From: Methanosarcina acetivorans C2A
Lineage (GTDB): Archaea > Halobacteriota > Methanosarcinia > Methanosarcinales > Methanosarcinaceae
Length of the DNA: 64,000 bases
Reading direction: 5' to 3'
NCBI RefSeq assembly: GCF_000007345.1
Contig: NC_003552.1
Span: forward strand, 682,001 to 746,000
Both the position numbers and the translations under genes were made by a program. A model generated the notes under the pieces. The model was not told the DNA's origin, searched no databases, and saw nothing but the letters and a program-made list of their open reading frames with translations. Below are positions 44,052-52,000 of the stretch, one piece after another (within the stretch, counting starts at the first letter, position 1; every line of letters begins with the position of its first letter).

Positions 44052-44726
44052 TTAAGTTTGCTCTGAAATATATCTCTTAAACCACTCCCCGGCTAAACGA
44101 GCAACTTCTTCCAGCGTTCCAGGCTCTTCAAAAAGATGTGTAGCACCGGGAACAATCTTCAGTTCCTTCTCAGGCATGACCATTCTGTCTAATGCCCACC
44201 GGTTCAGGTCTATTACCTGAATGTCTTCTCCCCCAACAATAAGCAGTGTAGGGGCTTTTACACACATAAGAGCACTTTCAGCAAGGTCAGGCCGCCCTCC
44301 TCTCGAGACCACTGCTTTTACAGTTTCAGAGTGCTCTTTTGCAGCTATGAGTGCGGCTGCAGCACCTGTACTGGAGCCAAAGTAACCTATGTTAAGCTTT
44401 TCAGTATCAGGGTTATGTAAAAGCCAGTTTGTCGTGTCAATAAGGCGTTTTGAAAGCAGGTCTATATCAAAACGGAGATGGCGCGTTAGCATATCGACTC
44501 TCTCTTCTTCGACTGTAAGGAGATCAAATAAAAGGGTTCCAAGGCCGCCTTTCTGAAGTTCCTCTGCAACGTACTGGTTGCGTGGGCTATGGCGGCTGCT
44601 CCCGCTTCCGTGCACAAAAACGACAATCCCCCTGGCTCCTTCAGGGATAGATAGAATTCCCTCAAGATGTATTCCGTCAATAGAAATGCGGACTTCGGCA
44701 TCTCTTTTATCGGTATTCGATGGTAT
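44052..44726 (-). CDS. Dienelactone-hydrolase-like alpha/beta hydrolase, possible ATA start
   Basis: A protein of about 224 residues if it begins at ATA 44726. The alpha/beta fold includes the oxyanion strand and loop GIVVFVHGSGSSRHSPRN, the nucleophile elbow GYFGSSTGAAAAL, the acid in LLIVGGEDIQVID and His in VPGATHLFEEPG. The first ATG/GTG/TTG is GTG 44615, which falls inside the first core strand and would remove DAEVRISIDGIHLEGILSIP, plainly part of the fold. The in-frame ATA has GGGGG 8 nt upstream. It follows the phosphoribosyltransferase, with which it is fused in some organisms. Confidence 0.8.
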   Translation of the reverse strand: MPSNTDKRDAEVRISIDGIHLEGILSIPEGARGIVVFVHGSGSSRHSPRNQYVAEELQKGGLGTLLFDLLTVEEERVDMLTRHLRFDIDLLSKRLIDTTNWLLHNPDTEKLNIGYFGSSTGAAAALIAAKEHSETVKAVVSRGGRPDLAESALMCVKAPTLLIVGGEDIQVIDLNRWALDRMVMPEKELKIVPGATHLFEEPGTLEEVARLAGEWFKRYISEQT

Positions 44727-44758
44727 GTTCGTTACCCCCTGGAAAGATTTTATTTCGA

Positions 44759-44799
44759 TGGAAAATTTCTTGCTTTATTCTGGAAAATTTCTTGCTTTA
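44759..44799. repeat. 19-bp direct repeat at the phosphoribosyltransferase-hydrolase junction
   Basis: TGGAAAATTTCTTGCTTTA occurs at 44759-44777 and 44781-44799 (22-nt offset). The duplication spans the stop codon of the phosphoribosyltransferase and places it in the same frame as the downstream hydrolase, separated by a single TAA. Confidence 0.85.
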
Positions 44800-45425
44800 C
44801 GCAGCAGTTCGCATACTTCGTCGTCCGTAGTCTGGCTGAAATCCCCATATGAGGCTCCTACCGCATAAAATGGCTCCGGTGTGGCAGCGCAGATTACTTC
44901 ATCGACTTTATCTTCAAAGAACCTGCACATGTCCGGGGAAGACGTAGGGACCGCGACAACCAGTTTAGCCGGGTTTTTAGTTTTAAGGGCTTCAACTGCC
45001 GCATGCATTGTTGCCCCGGTTGCAAGTCCGTCATCTATCAGGAGTACGGTCATGCCGTTTATATTCGGTTTGGGGTGATCCCCCCGATATTTGTGCTCCC
45101 GGCGTTCAAGTTCCCTGAGTTCGTTTGCAGCTACCGTAGCAATTACACTATCCTGTATCTGGAAATACTTTACAATGTCTTCGTTCAGGACACGGATGTC
45201 GTCAGATGCAATCGCTCCCATTGCCAGTTCTTCATTGCCAGGAACTCCCAGCTTCCGTACTATGAAAACATCCATTTTTACATTCAGGGCTTTTGCAACT
45301 TCAAAAGCTACAGGGACTCCACCTCTCGGAAGTGCCAGTATCAGCACGTCCGGGCGGTTTGAGTATTTTAAAAGCTCTTTTGCCAGCCGCTTTCCTGCGT
45401 CTACTCTGTCTTTAAATATTGCCAT
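44775..45425 (-). CDS. Phosphoribosyltransferase-family protein
   Basis: A 216-residue type I PRTase. The PRPP loop is VLLIDDGLATGATM (about 122-135), and ILALPRGGVPVAFEVAKAL plus DVFIVRKLGVPGNEELAMGAIA are the family core. ATG 45425 has AAGGGA upstream; a TTG 12 nt earlier is less likely. Members of this subgroup are found next to or fused with dienelactone-hydrolase-like domains, as here, and their substrate is unsettled. The C-terminus ends at the 19-bp duplication. Confidence 0.88.
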   Translation of the reverse strand: MAIFKDRVDAGKRLAKELLKYSNRPDVLILALPRGGVPVAFEVAKALNVKMDVFIVRKLGVPGNEELAMGAIASDDIRVLNEDIVKYFQIQDSVIATVAANELRELERREHKYRGDHPKPNINGMTVLLIDDGLATGATMHAAVEALKTKNPAKLVVAVPTSSPDMCRFFEDKVDEVICAATPEPFYAVGASYGDFSQTTDDEVCELLRKARNFPE

Positions 45426-45813
45426 TATTCCCTTCAACCCCCTGTTGAAACGGATTAGTCCATAAGATGAATATTAACTTATAATATCCACGTTTAATCT
45501 TTTAAATGCATGGATTTTTATAAATTAAAACTTAAACTTTCGTGCTTTCCTGGAGCAGGAATATCCAGTTTACAAAAATTAATGGAAGTAAGGGTAAAAA
45601 AGCTCAAGAGAGAAGCAAGCCCAGAATTTCATGTGAATAAAGTTTTCAAAAAATATCCCTTATATTCTCAAATTTTTGATGGTTTTGAGCAGAAACCTGT
45701 ATTCAATTGAATACTCCCTATTTACAAAAATAGTTCGGAACAATTTTATATATCATACTTTTTTAAATCTATAGGGGATTTAGGGAGGTTGGGGATTGAG
45801 GGAGGCGGATTGA
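45426..45813. other. Divergent spacer before the first sensor kinase
   Basis: A 66-codon open frame (45510-45710, + strand) has no ribosome site and I do not support it. GGAGG at 45801-45805 is the probable ribosome-binding site of the kinase gene. Confidence 0.4.
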
Positions 45814-47823
45814 ATATCTCAAGGTAGAGATAAACCGGTAACAATCGAGCCCTATGAAGTGATACTCTGGCTAGCCATAATTAGTGTGCTCTACCTGATT
45901 AGCCGCAGTAACTATCTGTTCTTCCATACTCTGGCGGAACTCTTCAGTGTGTATGTTGCATACGTGATATTTCTAATAGTGTGGAAATCAAGAAACCATC
46001 TGGAAAACCGGTACTTTGTATTTATAGGGATTGCTTACTTTTTTATCGGAGGACTTGATCTATTATACACACTTTCCTACGAAGGAATGGGGGTATTTCC
46101 TGAATTTGATTCAAATATACACTCCCAGTTCTGGATTGCTGCAAGGTATATGGAAAGTATATCCTTTCTGCTGGCTCCGCTGCTTTTAACAGGTTACGGT
46201 ATGAAACACCTGAAAAAGAATGATAAATATATTGGAAGAGCAAGTTTTGCCTGGGAAGTCTTTCTGGCGTATGCAGGAATCACTGTTTTATGCCTGCTCT
46301 CTATCCTTGTTTTCAAAAGCTTTCCGGTTGCTTATATTGAAGGTTCAGGGTTCACCTTTTTTAAAATGGCAAGTGAATATGTAATTTCTTTTATTCTCCT
46401 CTGCTCTCTGGTGGCTCTTTACGTAAAAAGGGACAGATTTGAAAACAATGTCTTCAGATTGCTTGCAGCAGCTATTGTTCTGACAGTTCTGGGAGAACTG
46501 AGCTTATGGGTTTATACAAATGAAGGCGGATTTTTTGACCTGATGGGACATTTCTTCAAAATTCTTTCCTTTTACCTGATCTATAAAGCGATAGTTGAGA
46601 CCGGATTTGAAGATCCTTTCAGCCTTCTTTTCAGGGAACTTAAACATAGAGAAGAGGCTTTGAGACAGGAAACAATTTTCCTCAAGGACGATCAGGGTTA
46701 CCTGTATAAATTACTCGGTTTAAAGGAAAATCCGTTTGAAGCGGAATCGTGTGTAGAAAAGGTCCCAATAGACGAGAAAGACTACCCTTCTTTTGTGCAA
46801 AACATAGAGGGGCTTCTAGGCTTTCGGCTTGATGAGAATCTTGAACCTGTATTCATGGACGGGGCTGTTGAAGAGATTACAGGTTACAGTAAGGAAGATT
46901 TCCTTTCCCGTAAGGTCAAATGGGTTGAATTAATCCTGCCTGAATACCTGCCTCTATTTTTCGACAACATGAACAAAGCAGTTTCCAATCCGGATCTTTC
47001 CAGAGAGCTCGAGTATAAAATACGCAGAAAAGACGGAGAAACCAAATGGGTCAGAGAGGTTCTCCAGAAACTTCCGGAGCGTTCCAGGTCACAGGGAAGG
47101 ACACAGGGTCTTGTCCGTGATATTACAAGACGTAAAACTGCAGAAGAAACTCTGGCAAAAATACAGGAAGCTCGGATAAAGGAAATCCACCATCGAATAA
47201 AAAACAATTTACAGGTTATCTCCTCCCTCCTCAGCCTTGAAGCTGAAAAGTTCAGTGATGAACGGACTCTTGAGGCTTTTCGGGAAAGCCAGAACAGGGT
47301 TGTCTCGATGGCCCTCATCCATGAGGAACTCTATGAAGGCAAAGGCATGGACACAATAGATTTTGCGGTTTACCTTCGGAAATTAACCCTTGACCTGTTC
47401 AACTCGTACACTGTAGAGACCAGAAAGGTCAGACTTAACCTTGATCTCGAACAGGTTTATCTTGGTATGGACACTGCAATCCCTCTTGGAATTATTGTCA
47501 ACGAGCTCGTTTCAAATTCTCTAAAGCATGCTTTTCCTTCAGGCGGCGAAGATGAAATCCGAATCAACTTGCGTAGAATGGAGGATTCTACCTCAAAACC
47601 GGAAAGAGTTCCCGGCTGCCAGAACGGAAAAGTTTTCCATTACATGCTTACGGTAACTGATAACGGAAGGGGCTTTCCTGAAGAGATAAATTTCCAGAAC
47701 TCTGAATCCCTGGGGCTCCAGCTCGTAAATATCCTTGTTGAGCAGATAGATGGTTGTATTGAACTTAAAAGGGACAGGGGGTCGGAGTTCGCGATCTTTT
47801 TTGATAATCCGGGGAATGAATGA
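45814..47823 (+). CDS. MASE3-PAS-HisKA_2 sensor histidine kinase, copy 1
   Basis: About 669 residues from the proposed ATA start, or 654 from GTG 45859. Order: a seven-helix MASE3-like membrane sensor (LAIISVLYLISRSNYLFFHT to about residue 250), a PAS domain (LGFRLDENLEPVFMDGAVEE..., about 325-430) with PAC tail, HisKA_2 with RIKEIHHRIKNNLQVISSLL, and a HATPase with N box GIIVNELVSNSLKHAF and G box DNGRGFPEE. GGAGG at 45801 is 8 nt before ATA 45814; GTG 45859 has no ribosome site. No response regulator is adjacent. The next gene is a paralog. Confidence 0.88.
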   Translation: MSQGRDKPVTIEPYEVILWLAIISVLYLISRSNYLFFHTLAELFSVYVAYVIFLIVWKSRNHLENRYFVFIGIAYFFIGGLDLLYTLSYEGMGVFPEFDSNIHSQFWIAARYMESISFLLAPLLLTGYGMKHLKKNDKYIGRASFAWEVFLAYAGITVLCLLSILVFKSFPVAYIEGSGFTFFKMASEYVISFILLCSLVALYVKRDRFENNVFRLLAAAIVLTVLGELSLWVYTNEGGFFDLMGHFFKILSFYLIYKAIVETGFEDPFSLLFRELKHREEALRQETIFLKDDQGYLYKLLGLKENPFEAESCVEKVPIDEKDYPSFVQNIEGLLGFRLDENLEPVFMDGAVEEITGYSKEDFLSRKVKWVELILPEYLPLFFDNMNKAVSNPDLSRELEYKIRRKDGETKWVREVLQKLPERSRSQGRTQGLVRDITRRKTAEETLAKIQEARIKEIHHRIKNNLQVISSLLSLEAEKFSDERTLEAFRESQNRVVSMALIHEELYEGKGMDTIDFAVYLRKLTLDLFNSYTVETRKVRLNLDLEQVYLGMDTAIPLGIIVNELVSNSLKHAFPSGGEDEIRINLRRMEDSTSKPERVPGCQNGKVFHYMLTVTDNGRGFPEEINFQNSESLGLQLVNILVEQIDGCIELKRDRGSEFAIFFDNPGNE

Positions 47824-48310
47824 GGTTCAGGTAAATGAAATCCTGATTTCTCGGAAATTTGCAGGTGTTTTCAACCGGATATAAACACGTATACTATCTT
47901 ATGTTCGCGTTGAAATTTTTAACATAAAATTATTTTTTTTTTTAAAACAATTTTTTTGGTAATTAATTTAAAATAGTTACTAATATAATGTTATATTCGC
48001 GGAGTTAGGAAGTTAGTAGGTATGATAATAAGTAAAGGACTGCCTGGAGGCCATTGATCCTGCTCCGGATCAATATGCCTGGGGAGTATATACTTCGGGG
48101 CTGCTGTATTGGGGAATCCAGTAAAAGGGTTGTGGCGCCTCCGGGCTTCTTCTTATGCTGCTTTTTACTGTTCTTTTCTCTATCCGTTATTTTATATCAA
48201 AGTGTGTAAAATCAGGGATTTTCAGCCCCCTGGTATTTCAGTATACTTCAATGTAATTTGTATCAGGTCGATCAGCACCTTCAGGTAGTACACTCAAGGG
48301 GGGCAACTGC
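47824..48310. other. Spacer between the two kinase paralogs
   Basis: An A/T-rich stretch with runs of T and A (47930-47970) suits a terminator followed by a new promoter; TAATATAATGTTATATTCGC near 47981-48000 could be a TATA region. No gene seen. Confidence 0.4.
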
Positions 48311-50335
48311 ATATATCATATTGGGGGAAACACATTTAAAGTAAAGCTTCATGAGGCAGCGGTCTGGATCGCGATAATAGGCCTGCTCTACTTAATCAGC
48401 CTTGGCAACTACCTTCTTTTCCATACTCTGGTAGAGCTATTCAGTGTCTACGTTGCATATGTAATCTTTTTGATAGTGTGGAAATCAAGAGAATGCCTGG
48501 AAAACAGATATCTTATACTCGTAGGTATTGCTTTTTTTTTCATCGGCAGCGTTGACCTTCTGCATGCCCTCACATTCAGTGGAATGGGAGTATTCAGGGT
48601 TCCTGGAATTAACCTGACTATCCAGCTCTGGGTACTTGCAAGATATCTGGAAGGCATTTCCTTCTTAGTTGCCCCTCTGTTCTTAATACGTAACAGAGAA
48701 TCCGGAAGCAAAGAGGCTGAAAACATGTATGGAGAGTCTCTTGAGGACTCCGTTTTTGCCTGGAAAGTTTTTCTCGTATATGCAGTAATTACTATATCCT
48801 GCCTATTTTCAGTCTTTTTTTTCAATAATTTCCCGGCTGCTTATATTGAAGGTTCAGGACTTACTCCTTTCAAAATCCTGAGTGAATACATGGTCTCTTT
48901 CATACTCCTCTGTTCTTTACTTCTCCTGTATATAACCCGGGACGGTTTTGAAACTAAAGTTTTCAGGCTGCTTGCAGCTTCCATAATCCTTACAATCTTC
49001 GGGGAGCTATCTTTTGCCCTCTATACTCATGTAGACGAATTACCAAATCTCATAGGTCACTACTTTAAACTGTTGTCTTTTTACCTGATCTACGAAGCCG
49101 TCGTAGATGTCGGATTTGAAGAGCCGTGCAGCCTTCTTTTCAGGGAACTCAAGCACAGGGAAGAAGACTTCAGGCAAAAAGCAATTTTCCTCGGGGACGA
49201 GTACAGCCATATATGCAGAATGATAGGAGTAAACAGGAGTCTTGAGCCGAATAACAAAAGCTTTGGGGATGATGAAAATCAGGAAGGTTCCCACTCTTTT
49301 TTACAACACTTTCCGGGGATAGGGTTCCAGCTTGACGAGGTCTTTTCACCGGTATCCATGCAGGGGCCTGTAGAGAAAATGACAGGTTACAGGAAGGAGG
49401 ACCTCCTTTCCGAAAAAGTGAGTTTGATGGAACTAATTGTACCTGAAGATCAGCATTTGATTATTGAAAACCAGCAGAAGTTGAAATCAAATCCCAAATT
49501 TGTAGCTGAGAATGAATTCCGTATACGCAAAAAAAATGGAGAGCTAATATGGGTCAGGGAAATTACCCGGAGTATTCAGGGAAGTTCTGAAGGCTCAGGA
49601 AAATTCCAGGGGCTGGTCTATGATATCACTGAGCGAAAAGTGGCTGAAGAAGCCCTCGAAAAAATAGACCGCATCCGAATAAAAGAGATCCACCACAGGA
49701 TAAAGAATAATCTTCAGGTTATCTCTTCCCTGCTTAGCCTGCAGGCGGAAAAGTTCGAAGACAGGGAAGTGATTGAAGCTTTCAGGGAAAGCCAGAACAG
49801 GGTTGCCTCCATAGCCATGATCCATGAAGAGCTTCATGGAGGAGAAAACCTGGATTCCCTTGATTTTGCGGACTACCTGCAGAAACTGACTGCAGACCTT
49901 TTCGATTCGTATCGTGTGGGCAAGGAAGGGGTAAGCCTTAAACTCGACCTTGAGAATGTCTATCTTGGCATGGATACCGCAATTCCTCTCGGGATAATTG
50001 TCAATGAACTGGTCTCAAATTCCCTGAAGCACGCTTTCTCAGATAAAAATGAAGGAGAAATCAGCATAAACCTGCACAGTAATGATGCGTCTCACTCTCT
50101 GGTCGAACTCTCCTGTTCGGAGCCGGAATTTCTGGAAAATGATGATTTCCATTATACATTGACTGTTGCCGACAACGGAAGAGGAATCCCTGAAAAAATG
50201 GACTTTCGAAATACCGACTCTCTCGGACTCCAGCTCATAACTATTCTTGTTGAACAGATCGGTGGCTGTATAGAACTTAACAGAGATTATGGGACAGAGT
50301 TCGTTATCAATTTTGGCAACTCCGAAAAATTATAA
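48311..50335 (+). CDS. MASE3-PAS-HisKA_2 sensor histidine kinase, copy 2
   Basis: A paralog of the preceding gene with the same domain order: membrane sensor (WIAIIGLLYLISLGNYLLFH onward), PAS (IGFQLDEVFSPVSMQGPVEK), HisKA_2 (RIKEIHHRIKNNLQVISSLL) and HATPase (GIIVNELVSNSLKHAFSDK, DNGRGIPEKM). The aligned first helix begins near 48350, but the first usable ATG/GTG/TTG is the TTG at 48467 or GTG at 48470, after that helix. GGGGGG at 48298-48303 lies 7 nt before an in-frame ATA at 48311, which would give 674 residues. Closest alternative: a decayed start. Confidence 0.85.
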   Translation: MYHIGGNTFKVKLHEAAVWIAIIGLLYLISLGNYLLFHTLVELFSVYVAYVIFLIVWKSRECLENRYLILVGIAFFFIGSVDLLHALTFSGMGVFRVPGINLTIQLWVLARYLEGISFLVAPLFLIRNRESGSKEAENMYGESLEDSVFAWKVFLVYAVITISCLFSVFFFNNFPAAYIEGSGLTPFKILSEYMVSFILLCSLLLLYITRDGFETKVFRLLAASIILTIFGELSFALYTHVDELPNLIGHYFKLLSFYLIYEAVVDVGFEEPCSLLFRELKHREEDFRQKAIFLGDEYSHICRMIGVNRSLEPNNKSFGDDENQEGSHSFLQHFPGIGFQLDEVFSPVSMQGPVEKMTGYRKEDLLSEKVSLMELIVPEDQHLIIENQQKLKSNPKFVAENEFRIRKKNGELIWVREITRSIQGSSEGSGKFQGLVYDITERKVAEEALEKIDRIRIKEIHHRIKNNLQVISSLLSLQAEKFEDREVIEAFRESQNRVASIAMIHEELHGGENLDSLDFADYLQKLTADLFDSYRVGKEGVSLKLDLENVYLGMDTAIPLGIIVNELVSNSLKHAFSDKNEGEISINLHSNDASHSLVELSCSEPEFLENDDFHYTLTVADNGRGIPEKMDFRNTDSLGLQLITILVEQIGGCIELNRDYGTEFVINFGNSEKL

Positions 50336-50896: not shown

Positions 50897-52000
50897 CTAG
50901 TACTCTCCGATGTATGTCCACCCCAGTTCCTTCATTTTCGAAGAGTCGCTCTCTTTTACCAACCCAACATAATACTCCTCCCCACAGAGGTATCCAAGAT
51001 CGCAGCTTTCAACTATCCGTACATCGGAGATCTCTATACCATAAACGGTCCCGTAATAAGCGATTATCAGTTCTGAGGGGGTGGGAGCTTTAATAAACTG
51101 GATGTTCCCTTCTTCGTACCACTGGTCCCAGGGAGCCTTTTCTTCGGATATTAGATACTTCATTTCTACAGTGTTTTCTTCTGCCCCTGAGGTACTTGTG
51201 GTGTTATCGGTAGTATCAGGTTCTTTTTCCAGGGGTTCCTGAGTAATTTCGTCCCATTCGCCGTCGATTACGGCGGATGTCACTTTTCCCTCAGAAATGA
51301 TGACTTCTATGCTGTGAGGGGTGAGAGCTTCGGTTACTATCTTGTCTGTCCTGTTTCCGTAACCGCCATGACTGCTTGTAAATGTATAGTTCAGGACATG
51401 TTGTTCCGGGACGCTCTCAAGCGCCTCATGGGTTTCCAGCTCAAGGTCAAAGCCATCAAAACTGTATGTGGGGGCGGTTTCTATCCAGTTTTCGGCTATC
51501 CTTTCAGCTTCTTCCGGAGATGTGTACATGGCATAAGCCCGCAGTTCAACAAGGGCAGAATCGACTTCCTGAAGGCCTTCAGGCATATATTCGGAATAAT
51601 AGGGATCCACAGTTACGGTTTTTGTGCGGGTACCCTCAATAAGGCTGATTTCCAGAGTTCCCACGTCCGTAACCAGAGGTTGTCCTTCCTGTGGAACATA
51701 GCAGTCTTCCATCTGAAGGAACCCGTTTTCTTCAAACAGGCTGATGAGTTCTTTGAAAGCGCTTTCATTGAAGGGCTTTTCATATATTTTCTTGGATCCC
51801 CCTTCATTGTCCGAGGTTGTAAATACAACCGATGTGCTGTTTACAGTTAGCTCCTGCAGCTGCATTTCCGGAAGTGTGAACGCTCCGTACGTTTTGTGGG
51901 TTATGGTCGCATTCTCGGAGATCTCTGTCTGTTTCTCGGCACATCCGGCTACAAAAATCAACAGCAAAATCAGTAGTACAGGAATTGTTTTGTTTATCAA
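50897..52000 (-). CDS. Secreted lipoprotein of unknown function
   Basis: A 367-residue protein. The N-terminus is a lipoprotein signal: a short basic start, hydrophobic IPVLLILLLIFV and lipobox VAGC (Cys about 20). The mature part has a Cys-containing region (EDCYVPQEG), an acidic Thr/Ser-rich linker at about 255-285 (EKEPDTTDNTTSTSGAEEN) and a C-terminal domain (DVRIVESCDLGYLCGEEYYV) with two further Cys. It is anchored on the outer face of the membrane. No recognised family. Confidence 0.75.
   Translation of the reverse strand: MINKTIPVLLILLLIFVAGCAEKQTEISENATITHKTYGAFTLPEMQLQELTVNSTSVVFTTSDNEGGSKKIYEKPFNESAFKELISLFEENGFLQMEDCYVPQEGQPLVTDVGTLEISLIEGTRTKTVTVDPYYSEYMPEGLQEVDSALVELRAYAMYTSPEEAERIAENWIETAPTYSFDGFDLELETHEALESVPEQHVLNYTFTSSHGGYGNRTDKIVTEALTPHSIEVIISEGKVTSAVIDGEWDEITQEPLEKEPDTTDNTTSTSGAEENTVEMKYLISEEKAPWDQWYEEGNIQFIKAPTPSELIIAYYGTVYGIEISDVRIVESCDLGYLCGEEYYVGLVKESDSSKMKELGWTYIGEY

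Follow-up and report, generated by a model that had tools for sequence, protein, structure and literature searches.

AUU starts occur in the bacterial genes infC and pcnB, the former autoregulated through initiation factor IF3; archaea have the factor aIF1 and no IF3. As a rule, gene-finding programs accept no starts other than ATG, GTG and TTG, which is also the default of the open reading frame (ORF) tool used here. Across 36 prokaryote groups, the accessible part of a survey (Belinky et al. 2017, PMC5622118) follows 61,358 ancestral AUG codons, of which 363 changed to GUG, 113 to UUG, 2 to CUG and 1 to AUU. Archaeal mRNAs that bear a Shine-Dalgarno (SD) sequence are, according to the sections available of another paper (PMC6237735), prepositioned on the 30S subunit, where the initiator tRNA is tested locally and aIF1 promotes the rejection of poor matches, and the excerpt at hand of a promoter and ribosome-binding-site library paper on Methanosarcina acetivorans (PMC11409679) mentions AUG alone as a start. 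Here, we analysed a stretch of 64,000 nucleotides (nt) from M. acetivorans C2A (contig NC_003552.1, positions 682,001 to 746,000, forward strand; hereafter the window), in which an alpha/beta hydrolase gene and two genes for MASE3 sensor histidine kinases (kinase 1 and kinase 2) each carry an in-frame ATA behind an SD-like sequence. Judged from the sequence, these three genes would be translated from AUA (probability about 0.87), and it is highly probable that AUA, AUU and AUC (together AUH) start genes in Methanosarcina.

A preliminary description of this DNA had placed the ATA of each gene 7-8 nt behind a G-rich SD, which held when the sequence was re-read (Table 1). The hydrolase frame opens at the stop at 44775, the end of a phosphoribosyltransferase gene, and is free of ATG, GTG and TTG until GTG 44615, directly before the HGSG motif. 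Kinase 2 has none of these codons from its upstream stop to the first membrane helix, the earliest being TTG 48470 (previously given as GTG) within the membrane domain. In kinase 1, an in-frame TGA lies immediately 5' of ATA 45814, and the earliest in-frame standard codon is GTG 45859; this codon and GTG 44615 had been identified correctly. In the hydrolase and kinase 2, for which alone the preliminary description considered ATA strictly necessary, no standard start lies in the stretch from the in-frame stop to the essential residues; with GTG 45859 available, the same does not strictly apply to kinase 1. The open frames span 240 (hydrolase), 669 (kinase 1) and 692 (kinase 2) codons without internal stops, and the domain set of a MASE3 sensor histidine kinase (MASE3, PAS, HisKA_2, HATPase) is complete in both kinases (Pfam: PF17159 above 280 bits; PF07568, PF08447 and PF02518 over cut-off). 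Among strong-SD ATG starts of M. acetivorans, 82 of 95 had a spacing of 6-10 nt, which makes the 7-8 nt of the three genes normal, and about 4% of gene-interior ATA codons had an SD score of at least 14 at this spacing (5.33 expected among 136), so that an SD-preceded ATA in three of three genes lies well beyond chance. The hydrolase very likely begins at AUA, kinase 2 almost as assuredly, and kinase 1 likely; the last is the least certain of the three because a start at GTG 45859 would leave the first membrane helix nearly whole.

We compared these sites with orthologs from other genomes (G numbers; G000 is the genome of the window itself). At the start place of the hydrolase, ATG stands behind a G run in 21 of the 23 Methanosarcina genomes in which the 5' end was read, and ATA in G000 and G013; the surroundings of the start in G013 (GGGGGGGTTGGCATAAACGAG) closely resemble those in G004 (GGGGGGTTGGCATGGGTGAA), which indicates that ATG changed to ATA in two separate lineages. 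The ATA of kinase 1 shares its alignment columns with ATG in G006 and ATA in G019, and a common GTG follows 15 codons on in all three. An earlier pairwise alignment had put the G006 ATG 5 bases upstream of the ATA and out of frame; the idea of a frameshifted kinase 1 was dropped, as the multiple alignment holds the ATA in register with both relatives. In kinase 2, a single column holds ATA in G006, G019, G008 and G018, ATT in G026 and ATG in G011. M. acetivorans differs from most of these orthologs by a 2-nt deletion just downstream of the start. The resulting frame shift brings into use an overlapping ATA that begins two bases earlier (GCATATATCA) and follows the G run by 7 nt. The in-frame ATA of this gene is accordingly not the homologous triplet of the ortholog start codon. 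G009 has the same arrangement, showing that the change outlived a speciation. Alignment with orthologs, the check proposed in the preliminary description, thus returned ATG or its AUH counterparts at these places, and no ortholog beginning clearly downstream of the ATA codons was found among the aligned relatives. The ratios of nonsynonymous to synonymous substitution rates (dN/dS) on the M. acetivorans branch were 0.185 for the hydrolase, 0.180 for kinase 1 and 0.196 for kinase 2; all three genes are under purifying selection and intact. A pseudogene with a lost start was rejected, the open frames and dN/dS giving no sign of relaxed selection, internal stops or frameshifts.

Two further observations were made at other loci. 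In the relatives G006 and G019, a gene close to kinase 2 (G006:C1:4406687 and G019:C28:264879) likewise lacks a standard SD start and carries an ATA after a G-rich sequence. In a second family of MASE3 kinases (paralogs L078 and L086), the start region reads GGGGG or GGAGG, then TGA or TAA, TTG, AAC and ATA, with a stop codon directly before the TTG; TTG lies 3 nt and ATA 9 nt from the SD.

The preliminary description held AUA starts to be rare in archaea and three within 4 kb to be unusual; this is wrong for Methanosarcina, where AUA, AUU and AUC starts recur genome-wide, and they are neither confined to the window nor the result of damage. The gene sufC1 was matched in 30 of 30 genomes of the genus (in three of them the match was no more than a fragment or a distant relative), with 27 loci counted in which the 5' end was present. 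In 27 of 27 the start codon is ATT, 8 nt from the SD GAGGTG (GGAGGTG in one locus), and 14 of the 27 have an in-frame stop directly upstream. The ATT is codon-invariant, and 0 of 12 other all-isoleucine (Ile) columns are invariant, which sets it apart from a usual Ile codon. Among 14 genomes of four other genera, sufC1 has ATT in 9, ATC in 4 and ATG in 1, and two of the four ATC genomes carry an ATG five codons upstream. The available text of a paper on M. acetivorans sufC1 (PMC10500019) gives no start codon for it; a published 23-nt guide against this gene matches G000 exactly, in keeping with the assignment of the window to M. acetivorans C2A.

In nadX, matched in 29 of 30 genus genomes, the 29 loci with a 5' end start with ATG (15), ATA (11), ATT (2) and ACG (1). 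The start is ATG in all 20 loci fetched from 13 other genera (out of 76 other-genus genomes matched in a family search), which makes ATG the ancestral codon. A tree built without the start codon requires at least five codon changes, and ATA is retained in all 10 species of one branch (support 99). The 13 loci with ATA or ATT have no ATG, GTG or TTG from -20 codons (or the stop) to +24, an interval that spans the nucleotide-binding glycine motif. In the CDP-alcohol phosphatidyltransferase gene (matched in 29 of 30 genomes, two only by a fragment or distant relative), the start is ATA in 14, ATC in 12 and ATT in 1 of the 27 loci counted, never ATG, and the SD is kept; two of the ATC genomes have a stop immediately 5' of this codon. 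The start of dacZ, a diadenylate cyclase gene (Pfam DAC), is ATG in 27 and ATA in 3 of 30. Less certain cases are a corrinoid protein with ATT in both true orthologs, a regulator with ATT (2/2; presumably PhoU-like), a small protein with CTG (2/2; which we take to be zinc-ribbon-like) and an unnamed protein with ACG (3/3). In rnfC (L103:16420, G000 776420), a near-perfect SD lies 8 nt before a CTG followed by Ser-Asp-Val in three of three species, a start made uncertain by GTG and TTG upstream in frame. An ATT at L105:3352 (G000 803352), in what is presumably hdrE, follows GGAGG by 8 nt in three species and is ambiguous, with an ATG four codons on.

For a genome-scale view, 800 kb of G000 were compared with the 800 kb of G006 that are collinear with them and with one contig of G019 (370 kb), giving 431, 203 and 206 ortholog pairs. 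Where strong-SD sites aligned and one member of a pair had ATG, the partner had ATG in 279 rows, GTG in 17, ATA in 10, TTG in 4, ATT in 2, and AAG, AGG and AGT in 1 each, with no ACG; we read the AAG, AGG and AGT rows as misaligned or as having another ATG close by. Neutral ATG triplets upstream of genes changed to ACG in 167, ATA in 141 and GTG in 86 cases, and AUH versus ACG/AAG/AGG differed between start sites and neutral triplets (Fisher P = 0.004, computed on rows that are in part not independent of one another). The ATA rows belong to kinase 1 and to the genes at 771519, 814775, 1091038, 1130084 and 727428, and the ATT rows to those at 582774 and 4307524/167419. Genome-wide counts of triplets behind SDs in genes without a standard SD start were noisy; at an SD score of at least 14, ATA was among the top excesses in G006, G000 and G019, together with ATT and CTG in G006 and with CTG in G000. 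A list of genes without a standard start before the start of homology (at least 68 of 431 pairs) consisted largely of noise, caused by matches that began outside coding DNA or in a different frame, and no counts were taken from it.

Several observations weigh against AUH initiation. The exchange rows lack independence, in that 6 genes supply the 10 ATA rows and 2 genes the 2 ATT rows, and the gene at G000 727428 has ATG as its very next codon and does not need ATA as a start. SD-based scans of genes without a standard SD start gave only a modest AUH excess, with fewer SD sites in total than expected from gene interiors. The third base in the CDP-alcohol phosphatidyltransferase gene varies as in an ordinary Ile codon with ATG absent, which makes this gene a weaker case alone. 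In the hydrolase, the distance from SD to start is unlike that of the ATG orthologs, and a codon-length indel directly follows the start; in kinase 1, GTG 45859 may still serve as the start. Finally, for M. mazei, the available portion of a ribosome profiling study (PMC11456600) reports ATG, TTG, GTG and CTG as small-ORF starts, with no ATA or ATT. Set against these points are start-site homology, interchange of the codon with ATG at corresponding positions, retention over long periods and purifying selection, together with the absence of a standard start from the only interval able to hold one in the hydrolase, kinase 2 and nadX.

We weighed three other explanations for the window genes. Quite unlikely is initiation at another non-AUG codon nearby, for example a CTG or TTG 3 nt after the G run in relatives of kinase 2, or ACG or GTA in the hydrolase. 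CTG or TTG does stand right behind the G run in kinase 2 of G006, G019, G008 and G026, but in kinase 2 of M. acetivorans and G009 this codon is out of frame and the ATA in frame, and a spacing of 3 is rare, occurring in 2 of the 95 strong-SD ATG starts. Still less probable is a start at the next standard codon (GTG 44615, GTG 45859 or TTG 48470), with the AUA region as a leader. All three codons are in frame, and GTG 45859, which the preliminary description rightly allowed kinase 1 to use and rightly found to lack a ribosome site (SD score below 11), just precedes the first membrane helix and would cost little; however, G012 has GTC at that place, GTG 44615 would cost the hydrolase 37 codons and TTG 48470 would cost kinase 2 its first membrane helix, and in the nadX loci that have ATA or ATT the next 24 codons hold no standard start. 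The least credible explanation is the one offered in the preliminary description, three independently damaged starts, under which the genes would be decaying or barely expressed: ATG to ATA needs a single transition, both kinases have many genome paralogs and kinase 2 has its deletion beside the start, but dN/dS is 0.18-0.20 for all three intact frames, the kinase 2 change is common to a second species, and the same codons recur in genes that are conserved across as many as 27 genomes.

Under initiation at AUH, Methanosarcina, and at sufC1 its family, probably uses AUA and AUU, with AUC a probable addition, behind SDs. A strong SD 6-10 nt upstream would position the 30S subunit on the start codon, and the initiator Met-tRNA would be accepted on AUA, AUU and probably AUC through an AUG match at the first two bases with the third left free, so that the first residue is presumably still methionine. 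Such third-base tolerance, given a good SD, would permit AUA, AUU and probably AUC as sole starts, and ACG and CTG seldom. AUH starts would originate by third-base mutation of AUG and outlast speciation because they are functional. We infer initiation with the initiator tRNA and a yield below that of AUG; a weaker start may, as a conjecture, suit sensor kinases and enzymes required in low amounts. A more tentative extension, to which we give somewhat less than an even chance, is a generally relaxed third-base check throughout Methanosarcinaceae, with AUN as the working start set behind a strong SD and perhaps 2-3% of genes (sufC1, nadX, dacZ, phospholipid synthase, sensor kinases) starting with AUH, some through many speciations; this tolerance may serve to keep expression low or to tie it to the fidelity factor aIF1. 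A search for aIF1 returned one SUI1 gene only and has no bearing on the mechanism. A short-pattern search for the initiator tRNA mostly matched sites unrelated to it, and ARAGORN identified no such tRNA in 30 loci. A 9-nt pattern recurred every 159 bp five times (G000:C1:4567247-4567891) and about every 160 bp three times (992769-993098), which suggests tandem repeats; the latter site yielded no tRNA.

Elsewhere in the window, a near-perfect 22-nt tandem duplication (44758-44801) covers the last part of the phosphoribosyltransferase gene, stop codon included, just before the hydrolase. At 45423-45428 on the minus strand, the same phosphoribosyltransferase gene reads ATAATG, compared with ATGATG in two relatives, and the second ATG is usable. 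For the lipoprotein-like gene (50897-52000, minus), the aligned codon is ATT in both G006 and G019, and G006 has no standard start there.

Table 1. Window features bearing on the proposed AUA starts (coordinates count from the first nucleotide of the window).
Feature	Position	Strand	Remarks
Alpha/beta (dienelactone-type) hydrolase coding sequence	44052..44726	minus	ATA-initiated reading; Pfam Hydrolase_4 and DLH over cut-off
Hydrolase, proposed ATA start	44724..44726	minus	Coincides with ortholog ATG
Hydrolase, SD-like GGGGG	44735..44739	minus	8 nt to ATA; SD score 17, spacing 8
Kinase 1, SD GGAGG	45801..45805	plus	8 nt to ATA; SD score 19, spacing 8
Kinase 1, MASE3-PAS-HisKA_2-HATPase	45814..47823	plus	Pfam; ATA 45814-45816 as proposed start
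Kinase 2, SD-like GGGGGG	48298..48303	plus	7 nt to ATA; SD score 15, best fit spacing 8
Kinase 2, MASE3-PAS-HisKA_2-HATPase	48311..50335	plus	Pfam; ATA 48311-48313 as proposed start
Kinase 2, ATA homologous to ortholog ATA/ATT/ATG	48313..48315	plus	Out of frame after 2-nt deletion; from alignment
Lipoprotein-like gene, fourth candidate in the window	50897..51997	minus	TTG 52000 (SD spacing 5) or ATA 51997 (spacing 8)

Non-AUG starts as such are already known; what is new here is the probable use of AUH starts, repeated and conserved, within an archaeal family. A search of the open-licence literature by title and the beginning of the abstract returned no report of AUA, AUU or AUC starts in Methanosarcina, which does not prove that none exists. 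Gene finders restricted to ATG, GTG and TTG would mis-set N-termini or shorten genes across these much-studied methane producers. A gene with ATG, ATA, ATT, ATC or ACG across sister species offers a natural test case of archaeal start-codon fidelity, and the third-base strictness of the archaeal ribosome becomes directly testable in a genetically tractable organism.

As in infC and pcnB, an AUN codon behind an SD is here the sole start of a conserved gene; unlike that handful of bacterial genes, the present cases comprise several unrelated archaeal genes and include AUA and probably AUC. They also resemble the GUG and UUG switches covered by the accessible part of the prokaryote survey (PMC5622118), in that start codons are exchanged between close relatives, and differ from its figures in that exchange with ATA or ATT is of the order of that with GTG (12 versus 17 rows). 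The arrangement proposed for kinase 2 is like that in a synthetic circuit, as described in the available part of its report (PMC6397469), where non-natural start codons rescued a gene whose frame had been shifted by a deletion near the start; there the mutation arose in a laboratory construct, whereas in kinase 2 the deletion is natural and occurs in two species.

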